Positions 3,068 to 8,165 of a stretch of 42,645 bases of DNA are shown piece after piece. The notes below the pieces were generated by a model that made no database searches, had not been told where the DNA came from, and saw only the letters and a list, made by a program, of their open reading frames with translations. Location: NCBI GenBank assembly GCA_017459705.1, contig JAFUCJ010000010.1, positions 1 to 42,645 on the forward strand, written 5' to 3'. Both the position numbers and the translations under genes were made by a program. Source of the DNA: Candidatus Saccharimonadota bacterium (GTDB taxonomy: Bacteria; Patescibacteriota; Saccharimonadia; Saccharimonadales; Saccharimonadaceae). Numbering within the stretch: the first letter of the stretch is position 1; every line of letters starts with the position of its first letter.

Positions 3068-3073
3068 ATTATA
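3068..3073 (-). promoter_or_regulatory. -10 box of leaderless promoter overlapping the RT stop codon
   Basis: On the minus strand TATGC-TATAAT (extended -10), 6 nt (GAAGAT), then the ATG of the PP2C-like gene. The TAA stop of the reverse transcriptase (3071-3069) lies inside the box. Confidence 0.6.
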
Positions 3074-4649
3074 GCATAAATGTTTTGAAAAACGTCAAAT
3101 CAGCCCCGTCATCATCAAACATATCGTCACAACTCATACCCATATCCGCCTCATCATCGTATCCATCAAACACCTGCACTTCCTTTACCGGCATCACATA
3201 GTCCATCTGCTTTATCATTTTGTGGTCAATTATTTCGCCATCATGCATCTTAAAACTCAACCAATCCGAATTCCACAGTTCCCCTCCCGTTTTATGTACT
3301 ATTTGACATATTTTACATCCATATTTTTTGCGCGGACGATTTTTTATTGTCATCCTCTGCAACCAAATCTCCAAATAATCCGTATTCGGCAACACCCGCG
3401 CTTTCTCCCATATCCTCTCCGCCAAACATTTCCGCGAAATCCCAGGGTTAAAACTCATTATTTTACACAAAATCGCCACCCCTACCGCATAAGTCCGCGG
3501 ATTCGTCACCATAATATCCGCCACAATGCTGATTAGCTGATACGAATCGCTCGGCCGATGTTCCAGCTTCATGACCCTTTTCTCGTAAATCTCAACCAAC
3601 GCCCGTTGTACACTTCCCGAATTCGGATACATTCGCGCCATTTCATCAATCATCAACAGCCATTTCTGTATGCTCAATTCTTTTACCCAACCCACTTCTT
3701 TCCCCCAAATTTCCCTATTCATATTCTCCAATCTCATCAAACCATTCCGAATATCCCAATGTCTCTTGTCGCGCTTCCTCGCTACCGCCAATATATCGTT
3801 ATGTATCACCGTCTTTTCCGAGTTCAACCGCAGCCCATTCGCCATCAACACTTCACTCAAAATCTTCAAAATCCGCCTCGCCATTACTTCATCTTTTGCA
3901 AAAATCCGGTAATCATCTCGATAACGTATAATTGTAAAATCTTTTTTCAACCCGTCCTTTTCTAGTACATTCCACACCATCACGTCAGTATACCCAAGCG
4001 CCATCTCTGCCAGAAAATCCATCACCATGCTTCCTTGCGGTAACCCCGAACTATGTTCCCTGCCCATCATCCGCATCAGCTCGCAAACTCTTTCTCCCAA
4101 TTTCCCATTCCCAAGCGCCCGCCGCACCAAGTCCAGGCTAATCGAACTATAACAATCCATCACATCGGTTTCAATCATGCACTCATAAAACAGCGCCATT
4201 TTTATTGACTCCTGCTCAATCCCCCTCCACCATTTCAAAATCGCCGCCGCCGTCTCATCTTTCTTCTCTTTTCCCCACGGGATCATACTGGCACTTCGCA
4301 CAGCACTTTGTTTCCGATACAATCGACTACGCGTCCGCAGCAACTCCCAATTCTCTTCCGTCGTAATCGTCTTAATTAATTCCGCATAAATCACCGGATG
4401 CATCAACTGGAACTCACGCCAGCAAAAACCACCATTTTTATTGCAAGGTATCACATAATTCACCCCTGTCATTTCACATGGATTCCCCGTAAGATAATCT
4501 TCCAACTCCCCCTCTTCCAGTTTATTTAACGCATATTTCAACACTCTTGTAAAATCAAAATAGGCCGGCAACGGCACTGTGAAATAATTATCGGATTTCA
4601 TAAAGTATTTTTTTGCCTCGTACGCAAGAGTCCTCTCTACCATTGCCAT
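3069..4649 (-). CDS. Reverse transcriptase, unknown-group (UG/Abi-like, defence-associated) type
   Basis: 526 residues with the polymerase motifs of RNA-directed DNA polymerases: motif A IETDVMDCYSSI (159-170), motif B SGLPQGS (201-207), motif C RYRDDYRIF (242-250, YxDD box) and GLRLNSEKT (272-280). FQLMHPVIYAELI (80-92) upstream is typical of the UG/Abi-like group. Residues about 320-435 look like helical repeats, as in Abi/DRT enzymes; a zinc-knuckle-like CKIC (445-448) and an acidic tail follow. The PQG form of motif B argues against a DGR enzyme, and no maturase or endonuclease domain points to a group II intron. The start at 4649 is supported by TATAAT exactly 6 nt upstream. The PP2C-like gene follows after 7 bases. 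Antiphage defence is inferred from the family; the exact UG/DRT class cannot be set by eye. Confidence 0.85.
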   Translation of the reverse strand: MAMVERTLAYEAKKYFMKSDNYFTVPLPAYFDFTRVLKYALNKLEEGELEDYLTGNPCEMTGVNYVIPCNKNGGFCWREFQLMHPVIYAELIKTITTEENWELLRTRSRLYRKQSAVRSASMIPWGKEKKDETAAAILKWWRGIEQESIKMALFYECMIETDVMDCYSSISLDLVRRALGNGKLGERVCELMRMMGREHSSGLPQGSMVMDFLAEMALGYTDVMVWNVLEKDGLKKDFTIIRYRDDYRIFAKDEVMARRILKILSEVLMANGLRLNSEKTVIHNDILAVARKRDKRHWDIRNGLMRLENMNREIWGKEVGWVKELSIQKWLLMIDEMARMYPNSGSVQRALVEIYEKRVMKLEHRPSDSYQLISIVADIMVTNPRTYAVGVAILCKIMSFNPGISRKCLAERIWEKARVLPNTDYLEIWLQRMTIKNRPRKKYGCKICQIVHKTGGELWNSDWLSFKMHDGEIIDHKMIKQMDYVMPVKEVQVFDGYDDEADMGMSCDDMFDDDGADLTFFKTFML

Positions 4650-6464: not shown

Positions 6465-6686
6465 TCAATTTGCCGCGATACGCATCTCTACGCAACCAGT
6501 AGACACATTGCGCACGACAAGATCTACACCATTACACGCTCGCTCCACTCGATGCGTCACCCACCCAGCCGAGTTTCTCACCACAAGTGTATTCGACAAA
6601 AGGCTCCCCTCCAAATACGACTGCGTCCCATCCGGCGCTCGGTAAATCAATCCATTCCTAATCAGCATCTCTTCCAGACAACCCAT
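6465..6686 (-). CDS. Hypothetical small protein
   Basis: A 73-residue ORF ending in TGA. It is supported by a Shine-Dalgarno-like AAAAGGA seven bases before the ATG and by a promoter-like TTGATT-N17-TAGAAT upstream. Short beta-strand-like stretches (TLVVRNS, VDLVVRN, VEMRI) and two cysteines are visible; there is no signal peptide or membrane segment. I do not recognise the family. It is divergent from the structured-RNA promoter at 6764-6793 and sits just upstream of rny on the same strand. Confidence 0.5.
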   Translation of the reverse strand: MGCLEEMLIRNGLIYRAPDGTQSYLEGSLLSNTLVVRNSAGWVTHRVERACNGVDLVVRNVSTGCVEMRIAAN

Positions 6687-6763: not shown

Positions 6764-6793
6764 TTGCACAAAACCACAAAACTATGCTATACT
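6764..6793 (+). promoter_or_regulatory. Promoter of the 6.8-kb structured RNA
   Basis: TTGCAC (6764-6769), an 18-base spacer ending in TGC, and TATACT (6788-6793). The predicted start near 6800 falls on the first bases of a 15-bp stem, as expected for a stable RNA gene. Confidence 0.65.
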
Positions 6794-6797
6794 AAAA

Positions 6798-7006
6798 GTG
6801 GAACAAATTGATAAAACATTAACGTATTTTTAATCAAACGTATTTTATGCTGATTGAATTATGAAACGGCACCATGAGAAAACCGTTTTAATTCAATCAG
6901 CGTCTTAAAAACGTTAATGTGAATTATCGATTTGTTCCACTCGTGGTGCCGTTTTATTATAAAATAATACTCCAAGAAAAATCCGAGAGGTTGACTCTCG
7001 GATTTT
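6798..7006 (+). ncRNA. Candidate structured RNA: 143-nt rod-like hairpin with a pseudoknot
   Basis: Nested pairing is visible: 6798-6812 with 6926-6940 (15 bp), 6816-6825 with 6911-6920 (10 bp), a large asymmetric bulge, 6849-6861 with 6889-6901 (13 bp) and 6864-6869 with 6883-6888 (6 bp). In addition the apical segment 6864-6878 is complementary over 15 positions (one G-U) to 6940-6954 just 3' of the rod, which allows a pseudoknot or an alternative fold. A terminator hairpin follows at 6978-7006. No ORF with a ribosome-binding site is present. It resembles no RNA family I can name; a divergent 6S-like RNA or a miniature inverted-repeat element are alternatives. Confidence 0.6.
6978..7006. 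terminator. Bidirectional terminator hairpin shared by two convergent structured RNAs
   Basis: AAAATCCGAGAG, a GTTGA loop and CTCTCGGATTTT form a perfect 12-bp stem with A and T runs on either side, so it can terminate on both strands. The minus-strand T run is the better one and would end the J-protein transcript; the plus strand would end the 6.8-kb RNA. Confidence 0.75.
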
Positions 7007-7028
7007 CGTATTAGGAGTTTTAGTCTGT

Positions 7029-7173
7029 AAATACAAACATTTTTTATTTGTCACAGTCAGGCTGAAAATCTGAGAAAATAGTGATGGAAAGCCGGTACTG
7101 CAATACCGGAAGGATTCCATCAAATTATTTTCTCAGTTTTTCACCAAGGCAAATGAAAAAATGTTTTGTATTT
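7029..7173 (-). ncRNA. Second rod-like hairpin (145 nt), J-protein 3' UTR or separate RNA
   Basis: Pairings: 7029-7050 with 7150-7173 (about 20 bp, imperfect), 7070-7080 with 7126-7136 (11 bp), 7082-7089 with 7115-7122 (8 bp) and 7092-7097 with 7104-7109 (CCGGTA/TACCGG) with a 6-nt loop. It faces the rod at 6798-6940 across the shared terminator. On the minus strand it follows the J-protein stop codon directly, so it may be a structured 3' UTR. A weak promoter (TTCTGG-N17-TATAAA) just before it could make it independent. The strand is uncertain. Confidence 0.5.
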
Positions 7174-7187
7174 ATAGTGTAAGAAGT

Positions 7188-8129
7188 TTAATTCCAGAAT
7201 CCGCGCTTCTTAGACCCGCGAAACTCTTCCAAAAGCTCTTTCTGCTTCTTGCTCAGATTCTTCGGTGTCTCCACAATTACTGTCACGATATGTGGCCCTC
7301 GATCGCCGTCCGCCCGAAACGGCACCCCATGCCCAGACAGCTTAAAAGGCGTCCCGCTCTGCGTACCAGCCGGCACCTTCATCGTTACTGTACCGTCCAC
7401 CGTTTCAACTTCAATTTCGCACCCTAGCGCCGCGTCCACCATGCTCACGGTTTGCTCCGACAAGATAATCGTCCCTTCACGCGTCAAGTGCTTATGCGGT
7501 TTCACGCGTATACGCACATACAAATCGCCCGCCTCGCCCCCATCAGTTGGCGCCGGGCCACCCTTACCTTTGAGTCTCACGCTCATCCCATCGTCAATCC
7601 CTGCCGGTATCTTCACCGTCAAATCATTCCCATCCACCGTAATCTTTTTCGTCGTTCCGAAAATTGCCTCTTCAAAAGTTAACATCACCGAAGTCTGATA
7701 ATCCGCCCCACGACGCGGTCGCCGCGCTCCCCCACGCGCACCGAAGCCAAACAAATCCCCTAGTATATCATCCAGCCCCCCACCGCCAAAGTCAAAATTA
7801 AACGTCTGTCCATTAAAGTTAAACCCACCAGCCGAACCACCAAATGGATTCCCCGAAAACCCACCATATGCATTGGAGCCACCGCCAAATCCCGACGCCC
7901 CACCCACTCCGGCGTGTCCAAACTGATCATATCGCGCCCGCTTCTGCTTGTCGCTAAGCACTTCATGCGCTTCATTGATTTCCTTAAACTTCGCTTCCGC
8001 TTCCTTATCACCAGGATTCCTATCTGGATGATATTTCACCGCCAATTTACGGTAAGCCTTCTTAATCTCATCGTCTGACGCATTTTTTGATACGCCCAAC
8101 ACTTCATAATAATCACGTTTACTAGCCAT
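7188..8129 (-). CDS. dnaJ: Class II J-domain co-chaperone (DnaJ/CbpA type, no zinc finger)
   Basis: 313 residues from ATG 8129. The N-terminal J domain (about 1-70) carries HPDRNPG and DYYEVLG. A Gly/Phe-rich stretch follows (about 72-145), then the C-terminal substrate-binding domains. The four CxxCxGxG zinc-binding repeats of class I DnaJ are absent, so it is CbpA-like by domain type. It stimulates Hsp70 (DnaK, not in this window) in protein folding. The upstream ATG at 8138 overlaps the -10 box; ATG 8129 lies 7 nt after TATAAT (8142-8137) and opens the canonical J-domain sequence, so it is preferred. The CIRCE operator at 8148-8174 indicates HrcA control. It sits at the end of the secretion-gene run but has its own promoter. 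Confidence 0.92.
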
Positions 8130-8136
8130 ATTATCC

Positions 8137-8165
8137 ATTATACTCCATTAGCACTCAAAATACAA
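8137..8165 (-). promoter_or_regulatory. dnaJ promoter overlapping CIRCE
   Basis: TTGTAT in the CIRCE spacer, 17 bases, then TATAAT (8142-8137) and 7 nt to ATG 8129. HrcA bound at CIRCE would cover the -35 region. Confidence 0.65.

Follow-up and report, generated by a model that had tools for sequence, protein, structure and literature searches.

What are the two long hairpins that face each other beside dnaJ in this Saccharibacteria genome, and do they belong together? The window, meaning the whole stretch of DNA analysed, comprises 42,645 nt of contig JAFUCJ010000010.1, and coordinates below are positions in it. G and L numbers denote the genomes and loci compared, most of the genomes being MAGs, and G000 is the genome of the window. 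The hairpins occupy a gap (6764-7180) between a 73-aa ORF (6465-6686, minus strand, with rny beyond it) and dnaJ (7188-8138, minus strand). An initial annotation had placed two rods here, at 6798-6940 and 7029-7173, and inverted repeats were indeed found in both places. The 417-nt gap folds at -151 kcal/mol on the plus strand, compared with -77 +/- 6 for shuffled sequences (z = -13.0), and the minus strand gives z = -12.7; the structure is thus not due to chance. The rods are real but unmatched: their mirror layout, equal size and shared terminator are a coincidence. The best explanation of the whole, to which we assign a probability of about 0.6, is an orphan copy of an attenuator-like leader RNA on the left and a separate DNA hairpin repeat on the right. 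The parts are as follows.

6764-6793, plus strand: promoter of the left RNA (-35 TTGCAC at 6764-6769, TG extension at 6785-6786, -10 TATACT at 6788-6793)
6797-6814, plus strand: P1 5' arm, inverted repeat with 6924-6941, pairs with two-sided changes in the family
6816-6829, plus strand: P2 5' arm, inverted repeat with 6907-6920 (P2 was left out of the family alignment)
6849-6861, plus strand: P3 5' arm, inverted repeat with 6889-6901, columns with two-sided changes in the family
6866-6878, plus strand: apical-loop strand ACGGCACCATGAG, complementary to the tail
6889-6901, plus strand: P3 3' arm, inverted repeat
6907-6920, plus strand: P2 3' arm, inverted repeat
6924-6941, plus strand: P1 3' arm, inverted repeat with family covariation
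6940-6955, plus strand: 3' tail CTCGTGGTGCCG followed by a T run (terminator-like half), both nearly invariant in 59 members
6978-7006, no strand: stem between the rods, 12-bp inverted repeat, U-rich mainly on the minus strand (dnaJ side)
about 7018-7186, no strand: right element, the dispersed hairpin at full length, its basal arms variable but complementary (42 aligned copies; empty sites)
7060-7146, no strand: conserved core of the right element, GGCT...CACC (model R1, from 13 copies)

The promoter proposed for the left rod, TTGCAC-N18-TATACT, is present and carries a TG extension. A consensus scan gave 4 promoter sites against 1.9 expected, so that the match is weak taken alone; its -10, though, is conserved across the left family. 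Transcription would start near 6799. A feature missed by the initial annotation is that the apical loop of the left rod (6866-6878) is complementary to the tail that follows the rod (6940-6952). It forms part of an additional inverted repeat (6853-6878/6940-6965), the core of which consists of the apical loop and the tail CTCGTGGTGCCGT directly after the rod, and this complementarity proved to be the key feature of the left element. The perfect 12-bp stem between the rods was also confirmed (6978-6989/6995-7006, with a 5-nt loop). Its description as a bidirectional terminator shared by both rods does not hold: the U-rich stretch lies mainly on the minus strand, for the dnaJ mRNA, and the left RNA has a terminator-like tail of its own. 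A terminator scanner did not call the stem at 6978-7006 on either strand.

A plain DNA search with the left rod returned the rod itself and short, weak shared motifs, which led to related loci that retain both the loop strand and the tail strand. A pattern based on this complementarity matched in 52 of 174 genomes of the genus, whereas its reversed control gave none. There are up to about 25 copies per genome; the pattern yields up to 25-30 matches per strand, many counted twice as it is nearly palindromic, and the counts per genome are approximate. Many leaders lie near contig ends. Sampling at the level of the order found the family in 16 of 393 genomes, all of one genus, and in no other genus among these 393. 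In a scan of 84,980 species genomes, nearly all of the 80 loci listed belong to Ca. Saccharibacteria, mostly from the ruminant gut. On the gene side of a copy, the contig often ends after 60-500 nt (G005, G012, G111, G116 and others), probably because the surface genes that follow are repeats that break the assembly.

Leaders followed by a secreted-protein gene also occur on MAG contigs assigned to rabbit-gut Oscillospiraceae, Dysosmobacter and Clostridia (L259, L266, L269, L283). Three of the four products are FISUMP proteins, two of the loci have CcrB-like serine recombinases nearby, and proteins about 60% identical to the recombinase of L283 occur in the Saccharibacteria genus. The leaders on these Oscillospiraceae and Clostridia contigs reflect either mis-binning or lateral transfer. 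Viral spread was considered and rejected, there being no matches in viral contigs.

The initial annotation had suggested that compensatory changes in the stems would support an RNA, and such changes are seen in the left rod. Among 59 aligned members, 97.1% of the cells of P1 are paired and 15 of its 17 pairs show two-sided changes; P1 was absent from the pattern used to collect the family and is hence an independent test. P3, where the alignment is imperfect, is 67.7% paired with two-sided changes in 11 of 12 columns. The loop-tail helix is 96.3% paired, with two-sided change in only 5 of 15 pairs. Its complementarity was partly built into the search pattern, the independent parts being the N-N pair, the flanking A/U pairs and P1; in the independent set the free loop-tail pair is AT in 44 copies, GC in 18 and TA in 4. 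Over the whole left structure 89.6% of cells are paired, compared with 71.6% after shuffling and 37-49% with slid partners, and two-sided cells number 466 vs 152. In hits collected by the pattern, 71 of 83 copies of P1 pair at 15-16 of 16 positions, whereas shuffled upstream DNA reaches at most 14.

The strand is indicated by wobble pairs. G·U outnumbers A·C by 82 to 6 in P1 of 74 independently found copies, which argues that the plus-strand RNA is the functional form. This count was repeated on the 74 copies with a Watson-Crick-only register of P1, the selection of alignment A2 having counted G·U as pairing. An extended -10 element, TGnTATAAT, ends about 7 nt before P1 throughout the family, with a profile over 59 members of T86 G94 n T91 A93 T64 A98 A86 T93 (percent). 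These comparisons support the left rod as a putative structured RNA with its own promoter. The RNA status that had been proposed for both rods thus holds for the left one, given its covariation, its bias of G·U over A·C and its extended -10; the right one shows no strand bias.

The genes that follow are of one kind. Among the 48 copies with at least 1 kb of readable downstream DNA, 46 have a co-oriented ORF of at least 150 aa within 300 nt, and 45 have a downstream ORF with a hydrophobic N-terminus, compared with 15 of 240 random points. The FISUMP domain (TIGR02145) is present in 33 of 36 complete downstream products. In G000 itself, a second leader (C7:128192-128266) is followed by a 712-aa FISUMP protein. 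FISUMP genes are found in 171 of 174 genomes of the genus and most of these genomes are without the leader, so the leader marks a subset and is not essential for such genes. Own promoter, co-oriented gene class and compensatory pairing, as expected of a cis-regulatory leader, all occur in the left family, and its members are very probably 5' leader RNAs of FISUMP surface-protein genes in one Saccharibacteria genus.

The copy in the window retains the promoter, P1, P2, P3, loop, tail and T run. No co-oriented gene lies downstream of it, where there is nothing but the 12-bp stem, the right hairpin and antisense dnaJ, and it would make only a short RNA of about 155 nt. In G056 (L052) a leader is found at the same place and in the same orientation, divergent from the 73-aa ORF, and is followed by a surface gene. 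In G004, G036 and G037, the stretch directly upstream of rny or the 73-aa ORF ends, judged by eye, in what look like the C-termini of FISUMP proteins. Taken together, these observations mark the spot as a place where surface genes come and go. Most likely the window copy lost its gene, the alternative being that it never had one. Its intact state suggests either that the loss was recent or that a role as a short RNA remains.

Transcription attenuators consist of a promoter, a structured leader, a GC-rich helix with a U run, and a regulated gene, and they rely on two competing folds. The left family has the promoter, the leader and the gene, and its GC-rich loop-tail helix directly precedes a nearly invariant U5, as in an attenuator-type terminator; its rod and loop-tail helix are two folds that may compete. 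It differs in that the terminator-like helix takes its 5' strand from the rod's apical loop and its 3' strand adjoins the base of that rod, so that both folds together would make a pseudoknot, and in being found on a dispersed surface-protein family. The loop-tail duplex has a predicted energy of -27.3 kcal/mol, compared with -10.2 for shuffled tails. The mean difference between the rod and the nested loop-tail fold is about 10 kcal/mol in favour of the rod, which is the more stable of the two in 57 of 59 copies; the loop-tail helix would therefore need a pseudoknot (a bent rod) or kinetic competition.

A possible mechanism is as follows. The extended -10 promoter would start the RNA on the first bases of the long rod, the apical loop and U5-ended tail of which share a covarying complementarity of 12-14 bp. 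The loop-tail helix and the U run might then act as an intrinsic terminator. Where the tail captures the loop, transcription would stop before the gene; where the rod forms before this, or something else occupies the loop, RNA polymerase would read through. The outcome might be set by the order of folding, by a pseudoknot or by a factor. On the strength of these sequence features, we give even odds that the leader works by transcription attenuation, in what looks like an on/off switch.

Other roles for the left RNA have to be weighed against this. It might be a trans-acting sRNA, with leader and orphan copies interacting through loop and tail sequences that are nearly common within a genome. 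Many copies in one genome share the tail (e.g., the first copies listed for G116 and G005), the copy in the window is intact despite having no gene, and three further copies (L144, L145, L147) also lack a typical surface gene. That a structure unneeded by a simple leader has been kept where no gene follows counts against a leader-only reading. Conversely, a free sRNA would not need to precede a gene with a hydrophobic N-terminus, as 45 of 48 copies do, and within a single copy the loop is a good match to the tail in cis; we consider the trans-acting role unlikely. A leader that serves as a 5' stabiliser, its rod shielding highly expressed surface mRNAs from RNase while the loop-tail pairing merely closes the fold, would agree with a transcription start next to P1 and with the 97% pairing of P1. 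It would leave unexplained the nearly invariant U5 after the tail and the GC-rich helix that ends exactly there, and is rather doubtful.

Sensing of a ligand or protein by a riboswitch, with the rod and its U-rich asymmetric loop as the putative aptamer, would suit a complex conserved fold with a U-rich stretch placed before one gene class. Riboswitches are not suggested by the scant conserved unpaired sequence (mean column identity of the alignment is 45%, with little conservation of this kind beyond the loop, tail and U-rich stretch), nor by any relation in Rfam, and this reading too has a low probability. More speculative, and improbable as it stands, is a lineage-specific switch for dozens of surface proteins, in which loops would be captured by the tails of their own or of other leaders, and terminated leaders and orphans would act as trans regulators. 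An attenuator-like leader thus remains the preferred reading of the left family.

As such it is a previously undescribed leader RNA that fits no named family and is absent from Rfam. At gathering cut-offs, tRNAs were the sole Rfam 15 matches, both in the window and in five left-family loci, and at permissive thresholds the best sub-threshold matches were eukaryotic miRNA models. 6S RNA was rejected: it is likewise rod-like with its own promoter, but the left RNA heads genes, has the loop-tail helix and lacks a match to RF00013 (none in G000 at E up to 10, with positive control genomes). Saccharibacteria go unmentioned in the main text of a large survey of structured RNAs from human microbiomes (PMC8040213). 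A literature search found no paper on FISUMP by that name or on palindromic repeats of Saccharibacteria, although subscription papers could differ.

This new leader-RNA family is the main find. Saccharibacteria are tiny and live on other bacteria, and the choice of host presumably rests with their surface proteins. A covarying leader that has a promoter and a terminator-like tail, and heads up to about 25 surface genes in one genome, is a testable handle on how these genes are controlled.

The right rod proved to be of another nature, and is a second, separate resource. Its middle is an inverted repeat (7063-7080/7126-7143). A DNA search of 100 genomes detected the core in seven further genomes of the genus, with as many as five copies in a single genome, and the covariance model R1 of the 87-nt core matched in 46 of 174 genus genomes. 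Copies are found after stop codons, between convergent genes and in divergent promoter regions (e.g., upstream of dnaK), and their orientation varies; the copy in the window lies after dnaJ. Ahead of the MQFD/MEFD gene, the gap measures a few tens of nt in G000, G001, G003, G004 and G010, whereas G037, G119, G048 and G018 carry the full hairpin; the presence of occupied and empty sites identifies the element as an insertion.

The core is nearly invariant across copies. The basal arms are wholly different between loci yet complementary, all 24 basal pairs varying on both sides among 42 copies. Near-identical copies in G148 share their arms, and G000 retains a 3'-half remnant of the element at C2:5054, indicating that an element carries its arms along as it spreads and that these later change together. 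Such concerted change would result from templated correction of imperfect palindromes. G·U and A·C are about equally frequent (50/44 in the arms, 13/8 in the middle, 3/8 at the apex). RNA acting from one strand would favour G·U, which argues for a DNA-level palindrome or an element acting through both strands; as far as sequence can tell, the right rod is a DNA palindrome and not a dedicated RNA. The weaker promoter that had been placed facing it was not borne out, since the consensus matches on the minus strand fall inside or at the edge of the rod.

MITEs, ERIC and Correia elements are short, dispersed, imperfect palindromes in intergenic DNA with a patchy distribution between genomes, and the right element shares all of these properties. 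It resembles MITEs and ERIC, but is most conserved at its centre and not at its termini, and its outer arms are locus-specific yet complementary. Insertion at an orthologous site that is empty elsewhere agrees with a MITE; conserved terminal inverted repeats do not occur, the termini varying by locus around a conserved core. By analogy, then, the element would be MITE- or ERIC-like, with a conserved centre and variable ends that misfit the MITE definition. REP and BIME are also dispersed extragenic palindromes, of about 35 bp as against about 165 bp here.

It is therefore very improbable that the rods are a designed pair of facing sRNAs with a common terminator, as the initial annotation had supposed from their similar size and mirror position. 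The two are separate, unrelated families with separate distributions (46/174 genomes for the right, 52/174 for the left). The right one belongs to a dispersed repeat without strand bias, found in either orientation in gaps of all kinds, which makes the mirror layout coincidental. In relatives with dnaJ adjacent, 5-205 nt separate it from the next gene, and neither rod is present there. Conservation between dnaJ and rny, on which the initial annotation had staked the rods, is thus lacking in the dnaJ-side gap of relatives, but each element belongs to a family that is conserved at other places in the genomes, and its absence at this locus would have misled as a ground for rejecting them.

Two further ideas about the right rod were abandoned. 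That it is a 3'-end element of surface genes holds only for several copies in G148; elsewhere it occurs in all kinds of gap. That both rods are remnants of one cassette (leader, gene and 3' hairpin) was suggested by their co-orientation in the window, but the right family is tied neither to surface genes nor to orientation.

Several other observations concern the surroundings of the locus. A reverse transcriptase gene (3069-4649, minus strand), matching the model of the AbiP2-type defence-associated reverse transcriptases at 2e-140, adjoins rny, two genes from the hairpins. The 73-aa ORF (6465-6686, minus strand), which also adjoins rny, is conserved, and in several relatives it has the opposite orientation with respect to rny. 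The start of the contig (1-226) is a perfect tandem duplication of 114 bp, probably an assembly artefact. Among the right hairpins, three (L008, L016 and L078, in G018 and G201) contain a hairpin-forming insert of 34-80 nt in the apical loop, and a tandem pair (L006, L019) is found upstream of dnaK in G048.
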